Notes: generated from the letters alone by a model not told the origin. A stretch of 64,000 nucleotides of DNA from Candidatus Saccharimonadota bacterium (GCA_028286365.1 JAQBRR010000001.1:248001-312000), one strand, 5' to 3'; counted from the stretch's first letter, positions 943-27,688 are shown. Numbers and translations are program-made.

Positions 943-1662
943 TTAACTACCAGCAGGAGGTGTAACGCCTACTTTCTTAAGGTCAGCGTTAATCAACGCA
1001 CGGAGTTGATCACCATTGTTCTGTTGAACGTCGCTAATAACATCACTGCTGAGTTGTACGCCGTTTAGGTAAATGGTTGGTGTTGAGTTAATATTTAACT
1101 TGTTACCAATCGCTTGGTCGAACGAAATCTTTTTATTGACATTATCAGCTGCAAGATCTGTCGTAAATTTGGCTGTATCAAGTCCAAGAGTTTTTGCATA
1201 ACTAACGAGCGTAGATGTCACAGCAGTGCCTGTAAGGTCTACCCAGTCGCTCTGGTGTTCATAAAGGTAATTATTCATATCCCAGTACTTGCCTTGAAGC
1301 CCAGCGGCTTCGGCTGCAGCTGCACCAGAACGAGCGTTCGGGTGAATGGTCGAAAGCGGGAAGTTACGGAAGACAAAGGCAAGCTGGTCTTTATACTGCT
1401 CGGTGATTTTACGAATATTTGGGTGAGCACTTCCACAGGCAGGACACTGCAAATCACCGTATTCGATTAATATAACTTTGCTGCTCGCATTGCCATACAC
1501 TTCGTCGGCAATATTACCACTAGCAGGCGTAGCGGGTAAGATCGTGTCCTGCTTCACGCTAGAAACGTCGACGATCGGGTTGGCGTTACGCGACGTGATA
1601 ACCAGGGCTGTCAGTAAGCCCACAACAATAACGGCAAAAATAATCCAGGCTTTCTTACTCAC
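943..1662 (-). CDS. DsbA-like membrane-anchored thiol-disulfide oxidoreductase
   Basis: 239 residues. An N-terminal membrane segment (about residues 5-23) anchors an extracytoplasmic thioredoxin-fold domain of the DsbA/Thioredoxin_4 type. The redox motif CPAC is at 73-76 in the context GDLQCPACGSAHP, and the cis-proline loop is seen as NSTPTIYLNG near residue 195. It probably introduces or shuffles disulfides in exported proteins. The start is GTG with AAGGAG 8 bases upstream, so this gene uses a classical ribosome binding site unlike many neighbours. An ATG five bases upstream is out of frame. No DsbB/VKOR partner is seen next to it. Confidence 0.88.
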   Translation of the reverse strand: MSKKAWIIFAVIVVGLLTALVITSRNANPIVDVSSVKQDTILPATPASGNIADEVYGNASSKVILIEYGDLQCPACGSAHPNIRKITEQYKDQLAFVFRNFPLSTIHPNARSGAAAAEAAGLQGKYWDMNNYLYEHQSDWVDLTGTAVTSTLVSYAKTLGLDTAKFTTDLAADNVNKKISFDQAIGNKLNINSTPTIYLNGVQLSSDVISDVQQNNGDQLRALINADLKKVGVTPPAGS

Positions 1663-1736
1663 AACATACTCTCCTTATAACTAGTCCTACTATTATAGCA
1701 AATTGGTAGTGTGGTCTGTTGTACAATAAGCATATA

Positions 1737-2735
1737 ATGTTCACGTTTTTACTAATTTTGACAATTTTCTGCTTTATACTGCTCGTTCTCGTAGCTGGTA
1801 TGCATCCCACGATGTCTTCATTGAGTACCTATGAACTCCGTAGGAGGGCAGAGAATAGTGATCACCATGCGGCTGAGTTAGTAGGTAAGCAGCTTCTGCT
1901 GCAAGACGTGATATCTAATCTAAAGATCAAAGTAGCATTTCTACTCGTGGCACTGTCGTTTCTACTTGTTGCAACCTTTGGGGCTTTTATTGGAACGATC
2001 TTGATTATCGTCATTCTATTTGAATATGGTGCGCTGGCTCGACTACGGTTCATCAAGAAGCTATCTAGTCGTCTCTATGGCATGTTGGAATCAAAACTTC
2101 TCATAATTGCCCAAAAGTCAGCATCTATTATGAAGTTTATTCGCTCGGACGTAGAACCTGAAAATATATTTCATCTAGGCTCACGTCAAGAACTTGAGCA
2201 TCTTATTGACCAATCCGAAGGTGTGCTGACGCCAGATGACAAGAGGCTAGTTGTCCATAGTCTCGCGTTTGGTGATACGTTGGTTTCACGTATCATGACG
2301 ACAGCAGGTGAGATAGCAAGCATCAAAAAGACTGAATTCTTGGGCCCACTAACCTTAGATGACCTTCATAGGACAGGACACAGTAGACTACCAGTTATCG
2401 GAAGTGATATGGATCATATCGTTGGAGTGCTGCATCTTGAAAATCTCTTGGCGCTTGATATTAAACGATCTGTCACAGCTGAAAAGGCAATGGATCCACA
2501 CGTTGTCTATCTGCATCAAGATCAAACTTTAACTCATGCACTTGCGGCAATGCTTCGCACGCATCGACATCTATTTATCGTTATTGATTCGTCTCGCAAT
2601 ACTGTCGGCATTGTGACACTTAATGATGTCATTGAAGCACTGATCGGACGCAAAATTATTGACGAATTCGATGGTCATGAAAGTATTCGAGCTGTATCAG
2701 AGCGTAGCCTGCACGAGAAACGCCCAGAAGCTTAG
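1737..2735 (+). CDS. CBS-domain membrane protein, CorC/HlyC (CNNM)-like
   Basis: 332 residues from ATG 1737. An N-terminal membrane segment is followed by a helical pair around residues 65-100. Then come two CBS motifs (SRIMTTAGEI..., with HSRLPVIGSDMDHIVGVLHLENLL, and EKAMDPHVVYLHQDQ... with GIVTLNDVIEALIG). This is the order of CorC/HlyC-type transport accessory proteins with a shortened DUF21-like part; no C-terminal CorC_HlyC domain is evident. A TTG at 1719 lies in frame, but ATG 1737 follows a TACAAT -10-like box (1722-1727) at 9 bases and is the better start. It may affect Mg2+/Co2+ handling; this is inference. Confidence 0.75.
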   Translation: MFTFLLILTIFCFILLVLVAGMHPTMSSLSTYELRRRAENSDHHAAELVGKQLLLQDVISNLKIKVAFLLVALSFLLVATFGAFIGTILIIVILFEYGALARLRFIKKLSSRLYGMLESKLLIIAQKSASIMKFIRSDVEPENIFHLGSRQELEHLIDQSEGVLTPDDKRLVVHSLAFGDTLVSRIMTTAGEIASIKKTEFLGPLTLDDLHRTGHSRLPVIGSDMDHIVGVLHLENLLALDIKRSVTAEKAMDPHVVYLHQDQTLTHALAAMLRTHRHLFIVIDSSRNTVGIVTLNDVIEALIGRKIIDEFDGHESIRAVSERSLHEKRPEA

Positions 2736-2756
2736 CCCCTTACTAGCCTTAAGGGG
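2736..2756 (+). terminator. Hairpin after the CBS gene, no clear T-run
   Basis: CCCCTTA (2736-2742) pairs with TAAGGGG (2750-2756) directly after the stop codon. No T tract follows, so it may be a weak terminator or 3'-end stabiliser. Confidence 0.35.
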
Positions 2757-2783
2757 GGTCAGGATGATACACTACAGAGTATT

Positions 2784-4094
2784 ATGACACGAACATTAGC
2801 CGCAGAATTACCCGCGAGTATTGGCGAAACAGTCACACTCCAGGGCTGGTTACACAAAAAACGCCTACTGGGCGGACTCAATTTTATTACTCTTAGAGAC
2901 CGTAGCGGACTTGCTCAAACACTCATTATTGATGATGAACTTGAGAAACTTCGTGGTTTACAAACGGGTACGGTACTCGCTCTCACCGGCACTGTCGTAG
3001 CAGATGAACGCGCACCGGGTGGTGCCGAACTTCACGACGTTACAGTCGAAGTGACGGTCCCCGTCACTGACGAGCCGCCAATCGAAATTGATAAACCACT
3101 CGGTCATGAGTCTGAGAATCTGGACACATTATTTGATAATCGGGTGATTGGCCTTCGCAACCTTCAGGAACAAACCATCTTCAAGGTTCAAGCAAAAGTA
3201 CTCGAGACTGCCAGGAAGTACTTTATTGATAATCATTTCACAGAGATGAACACTCCGAAGCTACTGGCCGAGCCAACTGAAGGTGGTGCTGAAGTCTTTA
3301 CGCTCGACTACTTTGGAAAAACTGCATCCTTAGCGCAGAGTGCACAGTTCTACAAACAGATGATGGTCGGTGTGTTTGAACGTGTCTTTGAAACGAACCC
3401 AACATATCGAGCAGAGCAAAGTGCGACGACGCGGCATATGACCGAATATATTACGATTGATGCCGAGATGGGCTTTATTGAATTCGACGATCTACTGATA
3501 TTTACGAGTGGTCTCATTAATGCAATTATCAACAATGTGTGGGACTCATATGGTGATCAGCTCAAGAAGTGGAATGCGCATAAGCCTGTGCTAACTGAAA
3601 ATTTCCCACGTCTCTCAATGGCCGAAGTCCATGCACTCTATGCTAAGAATAATTCCGAAGATTATAGCAGTGAAGATGATCTGCGACCTGATGAAGAACG
3701 CTGGATCTGTGAGTACGCCAAGAAGAATCTTGGTAGTGAAGCAATCTTTGTGACCGAATGGCCAAGCAGTAGTATGAAATTCTATCACCGCAAAAATGCT
3801 GATAATCCCGAAATTGCTGATCGTAGCGACCTGCTATTTCGCGGTATCGAAATTGCGACAGTACCAATGCGTGAAAACCGTTATGACGTCCTCGTTGAGC
3901 AGTTAAAGACGATTGCACATGGTGATCCAGAACACCCAGGCTTTAAATATTACCTACAGGCCTTTCAGTATGGCTTACCTCCACATGGTGGATTTGGTCT
4001 CGGGCTTGAGCGTCTAACCGAAAAAATTGTTGGACTCAACAACGTTAAAGAAGCGACGCTTTTCCCCCGCGATATCAATCGCCTTACTCCTTAA
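2784..4094 (+). CDS. aspS: Aspartyl-tRNA synthetase, archaeal/non-discriminating type
   Basis: 436 residues, close to the length of archaeal-type AspRS and much shorter than the bacterial type (about 590), which carries a GAD insertion that is missing here. An N-terminal OB-fold (VTLQGWLHKKRLLGGLNFITLRD) binds the anticodon. Class II motif 2 is seen as YRAEQSATTRHMTEY and motif 3 as GFGLGLERL near residue 403. It charges tRNA-Asp and, if non-discriminating, also tRNA-Asn, which would require GatCAB elsewhere. ATG 2784 has a TACACT box 10 bases upstream. The family call is firm; discrimination cannot be decided from sequence here. Confidence 0.92.
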   Translation: MTRTLAAELPASIGETVTLQGWLHKKRLLGGLNFITLRDRSGLAQTLIIDDELEKLRGLQTGTVLALTGTVVADERAPGGAELHDVTVEVTVPVTDEPPIEIDKPLGHESENLDTLFDNRVIGLRNLQEQTIFKVQAKVLETARKYFIDNHFTEMNTPKLLAEPTEGGAEVFTLDYFGKTASLAQSAQFYKQMMVGVFERVFETNPTYRAEQSATTRHMTEYITIDAEMGFIEFDDLLIFTSGLINAIINNVWDSYGDQLKKWNAHKPVLTENFPRLSMAEVHALYAKNNSEDYSSEDDLRPDEERWICEYAKKNLGSEAIFVTEWPSSSMKFYHRKNADNPEIADRSDLLFRGIEIATVPMRENRYDVLVEQLKTIAHGDPEHPGFKYYLQAFQYGLPPHGGFGLGLERLTEKIVGLNNVKEATLFPRDINRLTP

Positions 4095-4174
4095 AAGCGA
4101 CCGCATTCCTAAGCGAGCTTTCAGTTTATCTAATATATACTTACTGATAGATCTAAAAATAGAAGGAATTAAAT

Positions 4175-4687
4175 ATGTCGGATCAAACTAGGACCAAAAT
4201 CATTGGCCTTATCGTTATTGTGCTGCTTACGACCGTCGGAACTGTCGGTGCGGCTGCCTATAATGCACGATCGACCCAGCAGATAGCCGCTAGTGCGAGT
4301 CAGCCGAATGTAGTAGGTAGTAGCCCTAGTTCGCAGACAGCGACGACATCTTCAACTCCCTCTACTGCTTCATCGTCATCGAGCGCAACTTATAAAGATG
4401 GTACATACACTGCCAACGGGTCATTTTATACACCGGATGGTACTGAGCAAATTGGTGTCACACTAACACTTGCAAGTAATAAAATTACCGCTGTCTCAAT
4501 TGATTCATCATCAATATACTCTGGTACCTCAGCAGAATACACTGACAGATTTAGTAGCGGTATTAGTAGTGTGGTTGTCGGTAAGAATATTGCAGATGTA
4601 CAAGTATATAGAATATCTGGCGCATCGCTTACACCGATGGGCTTTAATAACGCACTCAGCGCGATTGAAAATGAAGCCAAAGCCTAG
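4175..4687 (+). CDS. Exported FMN-binding domain protein (covalent flavin carrier)
   Basis: 170 residues. A membrane segment (about 9-27) is followed by a Ser/Thr-rich linker (about 35-72), then an FMN_bind domain (YKDGTYTANGSFYTPDG... to the end). The motif SGASLTP near 148-154 fits the site where ApbE attaches FMN through a phosphoester to Ser/Thr. AGAAGGA lies 9 bases upstream of ATG. It overlaps apbE by 17 bases, so the substrate and its modifying enzyme are translationally coupled. It should act outside the membrane as a one-electron or two-electron relay. Confidence 0.85.
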   Translation: MSDQTRTKIIGLIVIVLLTTVGTVGAAAYNARSTQQIAASASQPNVVGSSPSSQTATTSSTPSTASSSSSATYKDGTYTANGSFYTPDGTEQIGVTLTLASNKITAVSIDSSSIYSGTSAEYTDRFSSGISSVVVGKNIADVQVYRISGASLTPMGFNNALSAIENEAKA

Positions 4688-5525
4688 CATTACATTTGAA
4701 GCTTTGGGTACGGAGTGGATGATAGAGGCCATTGACGTCGCGCGCCAGCAAACCAATATTAAGAATGAGCTTGATCGCATCGATCATATTTGGTCACGTT
4801 TCCAGGATGACTCACTTATTTCACTCATGGCAAAAGAGGCTGGTACGTATGAGCTTGATCAATCTGATGCTCTGCTTATGAAATGGTATCAGCAGCTCTA
4901 CGAGGCAACTGATGGCTTAGTAAGTCCTCTGATCGGGCAAGCACTTGTTGATGCCGGTTATGATCAAGCATATTCACTAAAGCCAAAAACTATCGTTCAT
5001 TCATCTCCGACATGGGAGGACACGTTAGTTATTGGAATTGATTCTATAACAATCAAACAACCAGCTCTCATTGATGTTGGTGCCGCTGGTAAGGGCTATG
5101 CTGTCGATCAGGTAGCGCGTCTGCTTGACGGTGACTACTGTGTTGATGCGAGCGGAGACATACTCGTTCATGGTCAAGAGATGCGTATTGGTCTCCAGAG
5201 CCCACACGACGAGACACAGTTAATTGGTGTTGCGACAATTAAAAACGAAAGTATCTGCGGATCCGCTATTACTCGTCGGGCCTGGGGTGATTGGCATCAT
5301 ATCATTAACCCAAAAACTGCTAAGCCAGTCGACGACATTATCGCGACCTGGGTGATCGCAGATAATGCAATGCATGCCGATGGTCTCGCAACGGCTCTAT
5401 TCTTTGTCTCGCCAGAAAAACTTAACCAACTTACACAGTTTGAGTACTGTATTATATATCGTAACGGTACCGTGAAATCAGTAGGTCAGAAAATAGAATT
5501 ATTTACCGAGAAGGCTACCAAGTAA
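4671..5525 (+). CDS. apbE: FAD:protein FMN transferase (ApbE)
   Basis: 284 residues from ATG 4671 inside the end of the FMN-binding gene; the longer upstream frame belongs to that neighbour. The family pattern is visible: an N-terminal LGTEWMIEA, DGLVSPLIGQALVDAGYD, IDVGAAGKGYAVDQVARLL, ASGDILVHG, and a C-terminal HHIINPKTAKPVDD followed by ADGLATALF. ApbE transfers FMN from FAD to Ser/Thr on exported proteins using Mg2+. No signal peptide or lipobox is seen, so it may work at the inner face or be exported in another way. Its stop overlaps the next start by one base (TAATG). Confidence 0.9.
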   Translation: MKPKPSITFEALGTEWMIEAIDVARQQTNIKNELDRIDHIWSRFQDDSLISLMAKEAGTYELDQSDALLMKWYQQLYEATDGLVSPLIGQALVDAGYDQAYSLKPKTIVHSSPTWEDTLVIGIDSITIKQPALIDVGAAGKGYAVDQVARLLDGDYCVDASGDILVHGQEMRIGLQSPHDETQLIGVATIKNESICGSAITRRAWGDWHHIINPKTAKPVDDIIATWVIADNAMHADGLATALFFVSPEKLNQLTQFEYCIIYRNGTVKSVGQKIELFTEKATK

Positions 5526-7024
5526 TGCGTCAGTATATCGAAAAATTTATTGATAGCATGACGATGTATCGCCTTGTTCTTTATGGTCTTTATTTAATTA
5601 CTGCGACTGCGTTTGTCCTGAGCCTTCTTGGCCAACTATCATTTACGGTTTTAGAACTGGGGCCGACACTACTTGTTTTACTGGTTGTGTCCTATGTCTC
5701 AAGTAAGTTATTCGCGTGGACGTTTTCTGCACCGTATAACCCAGAGTCATGGCAGATCACCGCTTTTATTGTATTCTTTCTAATTTTCCCTCAAAGTGAC
5801 CTAAAGGGCTATCTTTTAACCGCACTTGTTGCGTTTTTATCTGTTGCTTCAAAGTATATACTCGCCATTCGTGGTCGTCATATATTTAACCCAGCAGCAG
5901 TCGCTGTCGTTATTAGTGGTCTCCTCGGACTTTTAGGCGCAACTTGGTGGGTAGCAACGCTACTGCTCTTGCCTGTTGTTTCAATCGTCGGATTAGTGAT
6001 TACCTGGAAACTACGTCATTTTATGATGGTATTTGTTTATGGACTCGTCAGTGTTAGTTTGGCTGGTATCATTGCGCTTGTAGCTGGACGTGATTTAGGT
6101 GAAGCGTTTAAGACTGTCATCATCTCTACGCCGATTGTGTTTGCTGGTACGATTATGTTAACGGAACCGTTAACGTCACCAACGACTAAACGGAGCCAGG
6201 TTATCTATGCCGTACTCGTTGCCGTGCTTGGGGGATTACAGATTGGTTGGATATCAAAGCCGGACGTTGCACTTTTGGTTGGCAACCTGTTTAGCTTCTT
6301 AACTGGTCAACGACGTGCTATAAAGTTAGAGTTTGTGAGTAGTACTCAGATTACACCTTCCGTCTATTCAATTGTATTTAAACCAGTGAATCCAATTCGA
6401 TTTAAGGCTGGGCAGTATATTGAGCTGACCCTGCCGCATGAACATCCAGATGATCGAGGCATTAGACGTACATTTTCAATTGCTTCGCGACCGGGCGATC
6501 AATATATCAAATTAGGGCTAGTCACGGCAATTCCATCAAGTACCTTCAAGACAGCGCTACTTGCATTAAGTCCTGGTACGATCGTCAGAGCAACTGAGGT
6601 TGGGGGAAGTTTTGTCTTACCTGATAATATTGATGAGCCTATCGTAATGATTGCAGGTGGCATTGGGATTACGCCATTTCGCTCAATGATTGATGATTTG
6701 ATTGCCAAGCAAGAAAAGCGTCCTGTTGTTTTATTCTACGCAGCCCGCCAAGAAAATTTATTAGTCTATGGTGGACTACTCAACGAAGCGCGTAAGCAAC
6801 TTGGTATTATGATCGTACCAATAGTTGCACAGCCAAGTTCGACCTGGGCAGGGGAAAAGGGTTATCTAGATATGCAGACCATCGAACGCTATGTTGGTAA
6901 TGTTTACGAACATACCTTTTATATTTCAGGACCTAATGCAATGGCGTTATCGTTTCGAGAACAGCTTCGCGCAGCGGGGATTACCCCGAGCCGCATTAAA
7001 ACAGATTATTTTTCTGGTTACTAG
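5525..7024 (+). CDS. NqrB/RnfD-like membrane domain fused to a ferredoxin-NAD(P) reductase domain
   Basis: 499 residues. Residues 1-265 form about eight to ten membrane helices with the NqrB/RnfD signatures [11 protein letters not shown] (117-127) and TEPLTSPTT (213-221), the latter at the place where RnfD/NqrB carry FMN. Residues 268-499 form an FNR-type module: the FAD motif [10 protein letters not shown] (314-323) and the NAD(P) motif GGIGITPF (378-385). The fusion can take electrons from NAD(P)H to FAD and pass them across the membrane to the flavinylated partner encoded upstream. The order FMN_bind-ApbE-fusion, with overlaps of 17 and 1 bases, makes a compact extracytosolic electron-transfer operon. 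The final acceptor is not encoded here. Confidence 0.85.
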
Positions 7025-21073: not shown

Positions 21074-21544
21074 ATGACAATTATTCATCACGAACCGGTT
21101 CCTACTTATCACGTCGAAGACCTCTCACCTGAACAGCAAGATGATCTAAACGGAGCAACCCGAGCACTTGTGGCAATCACAGGAAGAATAAAAATATTAA
21201 TGGGTGACAGATTTAAATCAGCATCTGTAGTAGAATTACATACATTCGAGCCAACTGAAGGTACAGAAGTTGAAGAAAGTGAATCATCTGAACGCAGCGT
21301 AGAAGACATACAGCGCCTAGAAGAATCTGTTGAGCTTGTACGCCAATTGATCGCAGAAGCAGGTGAGCAAGGTATGTCAGTCGATGAGTTTCAATCCGCT
21401 GCATCTGCCGCAGGTATTGATGTAAAAAACGAAGCAGTTATGCAGGCACTTATCTTCGGATTTGATGAAGGTAAATTTTCTATTAGAGATCGTGACAACC
21501 GCATTGTTGCTGAATCAGTTAGCTCTGAACTTCAAGAAGCTTAG
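21074..21544 (+). CDS. Protein of unknown function (156 residues)
   Basis: Starts at ATG 21074 with AAAGGA upstream and a TTTACT-17-TATATT promoter (21023-21051). The protein is acidic, with a Glu/Ser-rich middle (EESESSERSVED) and a C-terminal segment that resembles a winged-helix-like fold (VRQLIAEAGEQGMSVDEFQS... GFDEGKFSIRD). No firm family. The stop shares TTAG with the convergent flavoprotein gene. Confidence 0.6.
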   Translation: MTIIHHEPVPTYHVEDLSPEQQDDLNGATRALVAITGRIKILMGDRFKSASVVELHTFEPTEGTEVEESESSERSVEDIQRLEESVELVRQLIAEAGEQGMSVDEFQSAASAAGIDVKNEAVMQALIFGFDEGKFSIRDRDNRIVAESVSSELQEA

Positions 21545-22914
21545 CCGAGTTTAGACGCCGCAATCCTAACTGCTTCACTCCAGCTCAGGAATGCGTGTGG
21601 CGTCTCGGCGATATTGTCAGCAGTTAGATTATGTTTAACAGCTAGGGCTAGTTCTTGAATTATCTCTCCAGCATGAGGGGCGACGACCGTTGCGCCTAGT
21701 ACGACGCCTTTTTTATCAGTGATAAGTTTGACGAAGCCATCACGAAAATCAGCAGTATTGCTGCGTGCGGTCAGGTTAAGGGGAGCGATTGCTTTATTGA
21801 TTGACAGGTCACGTTTCAAGCAGTCATCTTCGCTGAGGCCGACATGAGCAATTTCTGGGTAGGTGAATATGACGCCAGGAGTTGCTGTGTAGTCTGGTGC
21901 AGCCTTGGCATTACTAAGAATATTATGGGCTGCGATTCTGCTTTCTAGGAGGGCACTATGCGTATTACTCGTTCTACCGAGGACATCACCAGCGGCAAAG
22001 ATATGCTTAACAGTCGTTTGGAGGTATTCATTAACCTCAATTCCTTTCGGCGTGTATTTCACGGTCGCATTTTCAAGTCCAAGATCAACATTGGGCTCGC
22101 GTCCAGCTGCGATCAAGATTTCATCGGCACGAACTGATTTTTCGACACCACCGCGTGAGATAATGATTCGTTTACCGAGCCCATCCTTTGCTACTGATAA
22201 AATTCGGGTTTCAGTAAGTGAAGTTACGCCTTTTTGCTCACGGAGGATTCGCTCCATCAGGGTACCTACTTCAGAATCTAAATGGGGTAGAATGCGACTT
22301 GCCTTTTCGGCTAAATAAACCTTGGTACCAAATGTTGCCATCAGTTGAGCAATCTCAACACCGACCTGGCCAGCACCAATAATAAATAGACTTTTTGGTG
22401 GACGAATGGAGTATAAAATGGCTCGAGCCGTAATATAGCCAGCTTCCTGAAGTCCTGGGATATCGGGTACAATCCACTTCGAACCCGACGCAATCAGGAA
22501 CTTGTTAGCAGACAGATGTCGGCGGTTAACACTAATTTCGTTAGGTGACAGGAAGCGCGCGATGCCACTAAAGGCACTAATCCCCTGGTTCTCGTAATAC
22601 CGACGATTGCCTCCTGCTCCTGTTCGCGTCACAACTAAATCTTTCCAAGCACGTAGTGAGGGGTAGTTGTAGCCAAGTGTTGAGGTCCTTAGCCCAAATC
22701 TTGAGCCATTACTTGCCTCGTCGTATAGGTGGGCAGCATGAAGTAGGGCGTTGGTTGGTACATCTCCCCAGTTAGGTGAGTCACCCCCGAATGTGTCAGC
22801 TTCGATGATTGCGACACGCTTACCAGCCTTGGCGGCGAGGGTTGCAGCCGCACTACCACCAGCACCGCTACCGATAACGATGAGGTCATAGTCAAAGCTG
22901 TGTTTTTTTGCCAT
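21541..22914 (-). CDS. FAD/NAD(P) oxidoreductase of the dihydrolipoamide dehydrogenase family lacking the redox disulfide
   Basis: 457 residues. The FAD loop GSGAGG (15-20), NAD loop GAGQVGVEIAQ, FAD motif FAAGDV and the C-terminal dimerisation domain are all present. The active-site segment, normally GGTCxNxGCxPxKA, reads GGDSPNWGDVPTNA (43-56): both cysteines are replaced (Ser46, Asp51) and the Lys is Asn. The C-terminal HxxxxxE segment is kept as HAFLSWSE. It is therefore unlikely to reduce a disulfide or Hg(II) in the usual way. GGAG lies near ATG 22914. It is the last gene of an operon with an ATP-cone protein and a membrane protein. Confidence 0.85.
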   Translation of the reverse strand: MAKKHSFDYDLIVIGSGAGGSAAATLAAKAGKRVAIIEADTFGGDSPNWGDVPTNALLHAAHLYDEASNGSRFGLRTSTLGYNYPSLRAWKDLVVTRTGAGGNRRYYENQGISAFSGIARFLSPNEISVNRRHLSANKFLIASGSKWIVPDIPGLQEAGYITARAILYSIRPPKSLFIIGAGQVGVEIAQLMATFGTKVYLAEKASRILPHLDSEVGTLMERILREQKGVTSLTETRILSVAKDGLGKRIIISRGGVEKSVRADEILIAAGREPNVDLGLENATVKYTPKGIEVNEYLQTTVKHIFAAGDVLGRTSNTHSALLESRIAAHNILSNAKAAPDYTATPGVIFTYPEIAHVGLSEDDCLKRDLSINKAIAPLNLTARSNTADFRDGFVKLITDKKGVVLGATVVAPHAGEIIQELALAVKHNLTADNIAETPHAFLSWSEAVRIAASKLG

Positions 22915-22927
22915 AATTTTTCTCCAA

Positions 22928-23215
22928 TTAAATCGTTATAAGATATTGTTCGTACATATAGGCCGCATCGGGATGATGAGTATGTAGGTGTTTGGCGGTA
23001 ATTATACGAATGTCTTGACTCGTAATCTCGGGCTTGTCCTCGAGCCAGTTATCAACACTGTCACAGACTGCAGTCGCTATTGATTCAGCTTGTCCGACAG
23101 GTGTTCGAACACTCAAGCATGCGGCAATAATACTGGCGTATAGTTTCTCGCGTAGGAAATACTCACCTTGTCGTCTACCTCCGCGCTTTACAACATCAAC
23201 CGCAGTACCTACCAT
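22928..23215 (-). CDS. Stand-alone ATP-cone domain protein
   Basis: 95 residues. It fits the ATP-cone pattern over nearly its whole length: VVKRGGRRQGEYFLREKLYASIIAAC, then helices, then ITSQDIRIITAKHL and DAAYMYEQYL. ATP-cones sense ATP/dATP as regulatory domains of ribonucleotide reductase and NrdR; here there is no zinc ribbon and no catalytic domain. The start overlaps the stop of the upstream membrane gene (TAATG) and the flavoprotein gene follows after 13 bases. Confidence 0.75.
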   Translation of the reverse strand: MVGTAVDVVKRGGRRQGEYFLREKLYASIIAACLSVRTPVGQAESIATAVCDSVDNWLEDKPEITSQDIRIITAKHLHTHHPDAAYMYEQYLITI

Positions 23216-23931
23216 TACATGCCTCCCCCGACAATGTGAAAGACAACTTCATTTACATAGACAAAGAATCCGAGAATTAAGAGGCCACCACCACCAGCGA
23301 AGCGCAGAAATTGCTTGTTATTCTCACGCCATTTCTGAATACGACTGAGGCTATGTCCACTGCCAATTAGGCCCCATACGATAAGCGACGAAAGGGTTGA
23401 AATAACGGTATATATGACTAGCCCAACCAGCTGCCAGATACTTGGCAGGCCAATCAGAACGAGTGCTGTGATAACGACTGGGCCGATGATGAATAGTAGC
23501 TCGCTGATAACACCAGTTAGTCCAAGACTAAATGATTCGGCGGCCGTTTTGGTCACTTTGCTACGCTCATTTAAATGACGCGCAAAAGAGCGAGGAACCC
23601 ATAGCGATGTTCCTTTTTCGCGGCGGTAGTAAAACAGCCAGACGGCGACACCAACACCAACAAGTAGCCCACAGGCACAGGCCCAGACTAATTGTGGAAT
23701 TTGCGTACCAAAGATATCAAGTAGCACGAGCACCAAAAACGATACGAGTAGTAGCGTCATGATCTTTGTGCCGGCAATAAAACTGAGCGTCAGGCGCATG
23801 AGTTTGGCGTGTGAGCGCTTGGCTCCAATCGTATGACTACTAAGCATAGTCAGAACACTCACGCTCAGCTGAAAACTGGCATGAATAAGGGCGGCGAAGC
23901 CGACAACGAGGAGCGAGGTGAGTGTATCCAT
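23215..23931 (-). CDS. Polytopic membrane protein of unknown function
   Basis: 238 residues from ATG 23931; a longer frame upstream crosses the likely promoter (TATAAA near 23960). About six helices in two groups are joined by a basic cytoplasmic loop (YYRREKG... RHLNERSKVTK). The first helix contains AALIHASFQLSVSVLTML and a later one SLGLTGVISELLFIIG, a two-halves layout reminiscent of small transporters of the LysE/CcdA/TauE type, but no family is firmly recognised. It starts an operon with the ATP-cone protein and the Cys-less flavoprotein. Confidence 0.65.
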   Translation of the reverse strand: MDTLTSLLVVGFAALIHASFQLSVSVLTMLSSHTIGAKRSHAKLMRLTLSFIAGTKIMTLLLVSFLVLVLLDIFGTQIPQLVWACACGLLVGVGVAVWLFYYRREKGTSLWVPRSFARHLNERSKVTKTAAESFSLGLTGVISELLFIIGPVVITALVLIGLPSIWQLVGLVIYTVISTLSSLIVWGLIGSGHSLSRIQKWRENNKQFLRFAGGGGLLILGFFVYVNEVVFHIVGGGM

Positions 23932-27040: not shown

Positions 27041-27688
27041 ATGCGCAGGCAGCACGCCAAGAAACCATCCAAAACTACATTACGGAGAATACTATTGTTT
27101 GTTGGCGTGCCAGTAGTTTCGTCTTGCCTCATGTTTATACTTTTGCATGTCTTTGTACCTATTCCTTATAGTTCTACACCGTCAGTAAGAACAGTCATTA
27201 TAGTTCCAACGTCTCCCAAGGTCATAAAAGCTAGCGCTATTGTCAGCGCACTGCCGGTGCGCCTTGAGATTACAAGTATTAACATTGACACGACAATCTA
27301 CACAGCAGGGCTAACGAGTAGTGGGGATATGGATATAAGTGAAAACCCTGACGAAGTTGCCTGGTATCAGTTTGGTCCAAAACCGGGAGAGATAGGTAGT
27401 GCTGTGATTGCGGGGCACTATGGCTGGAAGGATGGTCATGGTTCAATTTTCAACAATCTCCACATGCTCGTAAAGGGTGACGAAGTTTCTGTTTATGATC
27501 AAAAAGGCGTTAAAAAGGTGTTCGTTGTGCAGGCAACTCAGATATATAACCCTGACGCGGATGCAACTAAAGTGTTTGTCTCTACTGATAAGAAAGCGCA
27601 CCTTAATCTAATTACGTGTGAAGGGACTTGGGTAAATACCAAGGATAGCTACTCAAATCGACTTGTTGTCTTTACGGACTTGAAATAA
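27041..27688 (+). CDS. Sortase (class D/E-like)
   Basis: 215 residues. An N-terminal membrane anchor (about 17-37) precedes the sortase barrel. Catalytic His126 (AGHYGW), Cys193 (LITCEG) and Arg207 (SNRLVVF) are all present. It should cleave the LPNTG protein encoded immediately upstream and attach it to the cell surface. The one-substrate operon suggests a dedicated pair. No housekeeping sortase is seen in the window. Confidence 0.92.
   Translation: MRRQHAKKPSKTTLRRILLFVGVPVVSSCLMFILLHVFVPIPYSSTPSVRTVIIVPTSPKVIKASAIVSALPVRLEITSINIDTTIYTAGLTSSGDMDISENPDEVAWYQFGPKPGEIGSAVIAGHYGWKDGHGSIFNNLHMLVKGDEVSVYDQKGVKKVFVVQATQIYNPDADATKVFVSTDKKAHLNLITCEGTWVNTKDSYSNRLVVFTDLK

Follow-up and report, generated by a model that had tools for sequence, protein, structure and literature searches.

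The ATP cone is known mainly from enzymes and regulators of the synthesis of DNA building blocks. Disulfide-less flavoproteins of the disulfide-reductase fold include LpdA (Rv3303c) of M. tuberculosis and SthA, with quinone-reductase or transhydrogenase activity; neither is known to us to share an operon with genes for a CcdA-like carrier and an ATP cone. ATP cones are regulatory in both ribonucleotide reductase (RNR) and NrdR, and in the latter K50, E56 and K62 contact nucleotides (PMC9110341). CcdA has six transmembrane (TM) helices arranged as two inverted 3-TM repeats, and movement has been proposed for TM1 and TM4 (PMC7329351).

Each of the three proteins considered here belongs to, or descends from, a known family. 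They are encoded in the window, the whole 64,000-nucleotide stretch of Candidatus Saccharimonadota DNA that was analysed (JAQBRR010000001.1:248001-312000), which comes from a nearly complete genome of 0.85 Mb. On its minus strand, positions 21541-23931 form a tight operon in the order MEMB-CONE-FLAV, with the following features:

23215..23931, minus strand: MEMB, a membrane protein of 238 aa, predicted to have six TM helices (3+3)
23866..23868, minus strand: Leu22 of MEMB, the first redox Cys position by alignment (SINPCAIG in relatives)
23491..23493, minus strand: Phe147 of MEMB, the second redox Cys position by alignment (ELPCTGAP in relatives)
22928..23215, minus strand: CONE, a 95-aa stand-alone ATP-cone protein matching PF03477
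21541..22914, minus strand: FLAV, a 457-aa FAD/NAD-binding protein of disulfide-reductase fold without the redox disulfide
22777..22779, minus strand: Ser46 of FLAV, replacing the first Cys of CxxxxC
22762..22764, minus strand: Asp51 of FLAV, replacing the second (flavin-side) Cys
21589..21591, minus strand: Phe442 of FLAV, by alignments the catalytic-base (His) position of dihydrolipoamide dehydrogenase

The MEMB stop and CONE start overlap in TAATG, with GGAGG ahead of the overlap, and 13 bases separate CONE from FLAV; packing and coordinates are as first described by a reading made from this stretch alone (the sequence-only reading). A promoter and terminator scan scored the real sequence no higher than shuffles. 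Close homologues are, by name, Candidatus Saccharibacteria. Elsewhere in the window, an Ice-binding-like domain protein (PF11999; 25960-27033, plus strand) is followed by a presumed sortase-like gene (27041-27688), so called from its appearance.

CONE is present in 26 of 27 other genomes of the genus and in several other families, and the first 30 loci had the order MEMB-CONE-FLAV wherever the contig was long enough, with gaps of a few bases. Across a sample of 295 genomes of the class, MEMB was found in 169 and FLAV in 181: both occurred in 165, MEMB alone in four, FLAV alone in 16 and neither in 110 (Fisher p 1.7e-57, a value that ignores shared ancestry). Among the 130 genomes with coordinates listed for both, MEMB lies upstream of FLAV on the same strand in 128, and the median gap of 306 bases is the size of the CONE gene; in the remaining two, both genes are on the same strand within 3 kb. 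FLAV is displaced by ~2.7 kb in one gut-derived locus (L089). The sequence-only reading had proposed a single unit and named scattering of its genes in relatives as the observation that would speak against it; order and spacing are instead kept in these genomes, and the three genes form one conserved unit. A plasmid origin was rejected: CONE had no plasmid match, and FLAV matches in phage records were all <60% identical.

Reading frames are open throughout, synonymous sites are saturated and replacement rates are low, with dN/dS well below 1 (~0.1 or less where measurable); the three genes of the window lineage are under strong purifying selection. An operon that was a pseudogenised remnant drifting to loss would fit the few family members that lack MEMB and FLAV, and a sub-branch (L034-L038, L044, L045, L089) with degraded cone residues and odd active sites, but the open frames, the low dN/dS, the retention of the cone across the genus and the new invariant residues of the derived clade described below all stand against it. 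For the window lineage this reading is already contradicted, and its probability is put close to nil.

The presence of a stand-alone ATP cone had been proposed together with the profile search that might disprove it. This search was run and the family matched, CONE scoring 29.8 bits against PF03477 (curated cut-off 25.8), as did 30 of 30 close homologues. When CONE was aligned by eye with the NrdR-like and RNR-like cones of its host, its K10, E18 and K24 corresponded to the NrdR nucleotide contacts K50, E56 and K62; this Lys/Glu/Lys set is kept in most loci. With the contact residues kept in CONE, control of the unit by ATP/dATP appears plausible. Nucleotide gating cannot be universal, since in one large sub-branch the N-terminal nucleotide-contact residues of the cone are degraded and FLAV has also diverged, and the operon persists there. 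A DNA-binding role of the NrdR type was rejected for CONE, which at 95 aa is a cone only and has no Zn-ribbon match. The host genome holds two further cones, in what we take from their sequences to be an NrdR-like protein and, in an 811-aa frame, RNR. Other small stand-alone cone-like proteins (~84-95 aa) sit in unrelated gene contexts elsewhere in the phylum (L156:5992-6270, L157:6008-6259, L158:6036-6290, L163:6008-6292).

FLAV matches Pyr_redox_2 (E 7.8e-53) and Pyr_redox_dim (E 2.5e-23). All 47 FLAV compared have the FAD motif G15/G17/G20/E38, and nearly all have the second glycine motif. Position 203 is almost always acidic, which suggests NAD rather than NADP, and is Glu in each of the 28 close homologues. 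Within the active-site stretch, GGDSPNWGDVPTN, S46 and D51 occupy the positions of the two redox Cys, and the description of FLAV as a remodelled NAD/FAD oxidoreductase without them is borne out. Loss of the active-site Lys, claimed in the same description, stands for the window, where Lys55 is Asn, but not as a trait of the family: Lys55 is kept in 23 of the 28 close homologues and is Asn in five, so the loss is local. The other replacements are far more constant (S46 in 28/28, D51 in 27/28, Phe442 in 28/28). Of the 37 Cys-deficient homologues, 34 carry an acidic residue (Asp or Glu) at position 51, which is best regarded as a conserved new feature, not random decay. The C-terminal His-Glu catalytic dyad of dihydrolipoamide dehydrogenase is incomplete: E447 is kept, but His is replaced by F442, a change on which the sequence-only reading was silent. 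Scores for three specific identities fell short of the curated cut-offs: MerA (354, cut-off 454; the C-terminus, AASKLG, also lacks the vicinal Cys pair), an LpdA-type NAD(P)H-quinone dehydrogenase (NF005883; 204.7, cut-off 479) and the SthA transhydrogenase (NF003585; 246, cut-off 465).

Such a protein could be a membrane-tethered NADH oxidoreductase with a non-thiol acceptor (quinone, oxygen or metal), for which MEMB would serve mainly as an anchor and CONE as a switch. The kept FAD and NAD(H) motifs, the conserved acidic position 51 and the disulfide-less precedents of LpdA and SthA all favour this, and a quinone reductase would suit a host whose haem-copper oxidase lies ~1.2 kb from a 412-aa Pyr_redox_2 frame, NDH-2-like by our own naming. 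However, neither haem-copper oxidase nor cytochrome bd was found in nine congeners that carry the operon (G003, G008, G009, G011, G012, G016, G017, G022 and G024; 94-98% complete), so a respiratory quinone pool is not the general partner, and a respiratory NADH:quinone role is disfavoured as the general function. An anchor would, in addition, leave the invariant polar residues of MEMB unexplained. The NADH oxidoreductase reading is considered unlikely, if still a serious competitor. Elsewhere in the window (4175-7024, plus strand), consecutive genes encode an FMN_bind-like protein (just below cut-off), ApbE and an oxidoreductase that is membrane-bound and has an NAD-binding domain; they look like a separate extracytoplasmic flavin electron-transfer cluster.

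MEMB had been called a small transporter-like protein, and it is indeed of carrier type, from the CcdA/DsbD lineage. The window protein itself matched no Pfam family, PF02683 included; weak matches to the FAM210, H_PPase and holin families were taken as chance, and PDB sequences searched with profiles of MEMB, of the cone and of basal MEMB yielded no relative. The lineage is instead traced through Cys-bearing, CcdA-like MEMB with the motifs SINPCAIG and ELPCTGAP, carried by L064, L065, L067, L159 and L160 in related families of the same order, and by L152-L155 in another class of Patescibacteria. Basal Cys-bearing MEMB can be aligned with the window protein from end to end, and the window and Cys-bearing groups, compared profile to profile, match with a probability of 97.7 (E 1.9e-12). 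The L160 protein passes Pfam DsbD_TM (33.4, cut-off 27.1), and other Cys-bearing MEMB among those tested match Pfam SfLAP or NCBIfam DsbD. Position 22 is Cys in 9/9 basal MEMB and Leu in 36/38 derived ones, and position 147 is Cys in 9/9 and Phe in 34/38, respectively.

A predicted MEMB model from an alignment of 47 diverse sequences (pLDDT 94.6, pTM 0.91), which replaced a poor one from 28 close relatives (pLDDT 78.9), has 3+3 helices, with TM1 broken at 18-22 and TM4 at 143-145, adjoining the former Cys positions 22 and 147. Foldseek comparison of both models with the PDB gave no significant match. New invariants have appeared in the genus-level set (H17, Q21, H33, E132, E144, Q167 and R202), and the polar residues H17, Q21 and E144, inside predicted TM helices, suggest transport; their facing is deduced from sequence and the helix breaks. 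The same residues weigh against a unit that is purely a sensor or regulator, in which FLAV would be a pseudo-enzyme responsive to NADH/FAD state, CONE would report ATP/dATP, and MEMB would be signalling or structural, without transport. Thiol chemistry that is entirely lost while ligand-binding motifs stay is what a sensor might show, and a regulatory role is what cones have in RNR and NrdR (PMC9110341), but the operon has no output protein and no DNA-binding domain, and a sensor is judged improbable.

Two observations go beyond the sequence-only reading: MEMB has also lost its redox Cys, and Cys-bearing, ancestral versions of the operon exist, which account for the starting point of the remodelling. 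In L064, L065, L067, L159 and L160, the operon encodes an exported protein, a CcdA-like MEMB, CONE and a FLAV with CxxxxC, and the L065 FLAV passes the NCBIfam cut-off for dihydrolipoyl dehydrogenase (427 against 408.8). The exported protein of these basal operons (GPVHWHADFEIWACG...) has several Cys and His, and belongs to an exported or membrane-anchored family that is encoded upstream of the CcdA-like gene, shares the motifs GPVHWHADFEIxxCG and HEHxDxRIHxEG together with several conserved Cys, and had no Pfam match in the three members tested. Its gene was located as follows:

L064, 4708-5697, minus strand: exported protein
L065, 5950-7005, minus strand: exported protein
L067, 3399-4322, plus strand: exported protein
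L160, 4271-5272, plus strand: exported protein
L152, 4633-5334, plus strand: exported protein

The loci of the other class (L152, L153 and L155, read gene by gene, and L154, by profile) have the exported protein, CcdA-like MEMB and CONE without FLAV. The cone is thus associated more widely with the CcdA-like carrier than with FLAV. In L152, the run at 1231-6647 comprises a cation P-type ATPase, an MgtE-type gene, the HWHADFE protein, the CcdA-like carrier, CONE and a Pterin_4a dehydratase, with the ATPase upstream and the Pterin_4a protein downstream. L064, L065, L067 and L160 also have an adjacent P-type ATPase-like gene, in divergent orientation.

Comparison of 54 diverse loci suggests an order for the losses. 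Apart from the degenerate locus L068, every locus with the exported gene has a MEMB with one or both Cys, and the window lineage has lost both this gene and all four redox Cys. No Cys-deficient FLAV was found beside a two-Cys MEMB, and five loci (L039, L042, L048, L059 and L062) have a CxxxxC FLAV beside a Cys-less MEMB, a distribution that fits loss from MEMB first and from FLAV later. CxxxxC is present in 10 of 47 diverse FLAV loci, all outside the window clade. In a quick FLAV tree, with the Cys columns kept in and some long branches, the Saccharibacterial sequences all group together (99), and the window falls among 31 sequences, every one Cys-deficient, that make up a clade with support 100; parsimony on this tree requires at least four changes of Cys state, or two if only well-supported branches are counted. 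The Cys-bearing L042 and L059 share a chromosomal slot with many Cys-less loci, bordered on one side by ftsH-tilS or dinB and on the other by an ftsB-like gene (names presumed from sequence appearance), flanks that mark these as orthologous slots and not replacements. Since intermediates with a Cys-bearing FLAV and a Cys-less MEMB exist, some in this same slot, the redox Cys were largely lost in situ. One degenerate operon (L070:4013-5998, minus strand) has a CcdA-like protein with one of the two Cys, a cone, and a 343-aa, barely recognisable FLAV relative.

The operon very probably originated as a transmembrane thiol relay. In the ancestor, CxxxxC FLAV would have passed electrons from NADH to a two-Cys carrier of CcdA/DsbD type and on to the exported Cys/His-rich protein, and the gene for a small ATP cone would have lain between those for carrier and FLAV; the parts are seen in the basal operons, and the electron path is proposed by analogy with their families. 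The window lineage then lost the exported partner and the four redox Cys but kept the three remaining genes together, and a thiol relay can no longer run within MEMB, CONE and FLAV. It might still run if other proteins supplied the Cys in trans, as the family's history as a thiol relay would allow, and as a DsbA-like exported thioredoxin-fold protein in the window (943-1662, minus strand) and a 316-aa Pyr_redox_2 protein of the host, which may be a thioredoxin reductase, could suggest. Both membrane Cys positions are now hydrophobic, however, the exported partner is gone, and searches of the host genome found no other DsbD_TM protein and no Pfam thioredoxin (PF00085), which makes a relay in trans very unlikely.

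Our preferred reading, held tentatively and at somewhat less than even chances, is that the present operon encodes a cone-gated, NADH/FAD-linked carrier of a non-thiol substrate. It is preferred over an NADH oxidoreductase or a pure sensor because the internal thiol relay is gone, congeners without the oxidases keep the operon, and neither DsbD_TM nor thioredoxin was found in the host. MEMB would retain the fold of a carrier, its TM1 and TM4 interrupted at the former Cys sites, and would move its substrate via the new polar site of H17, Q21 and E144. FLAV would still bind FAD and NADH and couple their state to MEMB, and CONE would bind adenine nucleotide at the cytoplasmic face and, like the cones of RNR and NrdR, act as a switch on how the complex assembles or works.

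In the literature searched, which covered little subscription content, no description was found of this gene combination, of a stand-alone cone in a membrane operon or of a graded loss of all redox Cys; nor did any paper mention a stand-alone ATP cone, or ATP cones along with Saccharibacteria. The main text of a paper on Saccharibacterial genetics makes no mention of oxidoreductases. The locus links an ATP-cone regulatory domain to a membrane redox or transport operon, and provides a natural series of stepwise loss of redox Cys, from a thiol electron carrier and from its flavoprotein, in an operon that is kept. It thereby raises a testable question, what CcdA-type carriers and disulfide-reductase flavoproteins do once their thiols are gone, and names a conserved, uncharacterised gene set in a lineage of very small genomes, some members of which are cultivated, genetically tractable epibionts (PMC10633639). 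A broader proposal, doubtful as it stands, is that an ATP cone, put to use beyond nucleotide reduction, came to gate a redox carrier in the membrane, and that in most of one Saccharibacterial family the thiol-electron carrier has turned to other cargo, driven or gated by a disulfide-less NADH flavoprotein.

Set against the known systems, CONE resembles the cones of NrdR and RNR in its profile match and conserved Lys/Glu/Lys contacts, and basal cones of the operon share NrdR spacing; it differs in having two extra residues in the first hairpin of the window protein, and in standing alone in a membrane operon without Zn-ribbon or reductase domain. FLAV has the FAD, NAD and dimerisation domains of dihydrolipoamide dehydrogenase and MerA-type reductases, but in the window lacks both Cys, the Lys and the catalytic His, and scores under all equivalog cut-offs among the matches listed. 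LpdA and SthA have the same fold and likewise do without a complete redox disulfide, although FLAV falls far below the cut-offs of both families. Finally, MEMB has deep relatives with the two in-membrane Cys of the CcdA/DsbD TM domain (PF02683), one of them over the Pfam cut-off, and aligns with them along its length, with six modelled TM helices and broken TM1 and TM4; unlike CcdA and DsbD, the window protein carries Leu and Phe where the two Cys would be, and is itself without a Pfam match.
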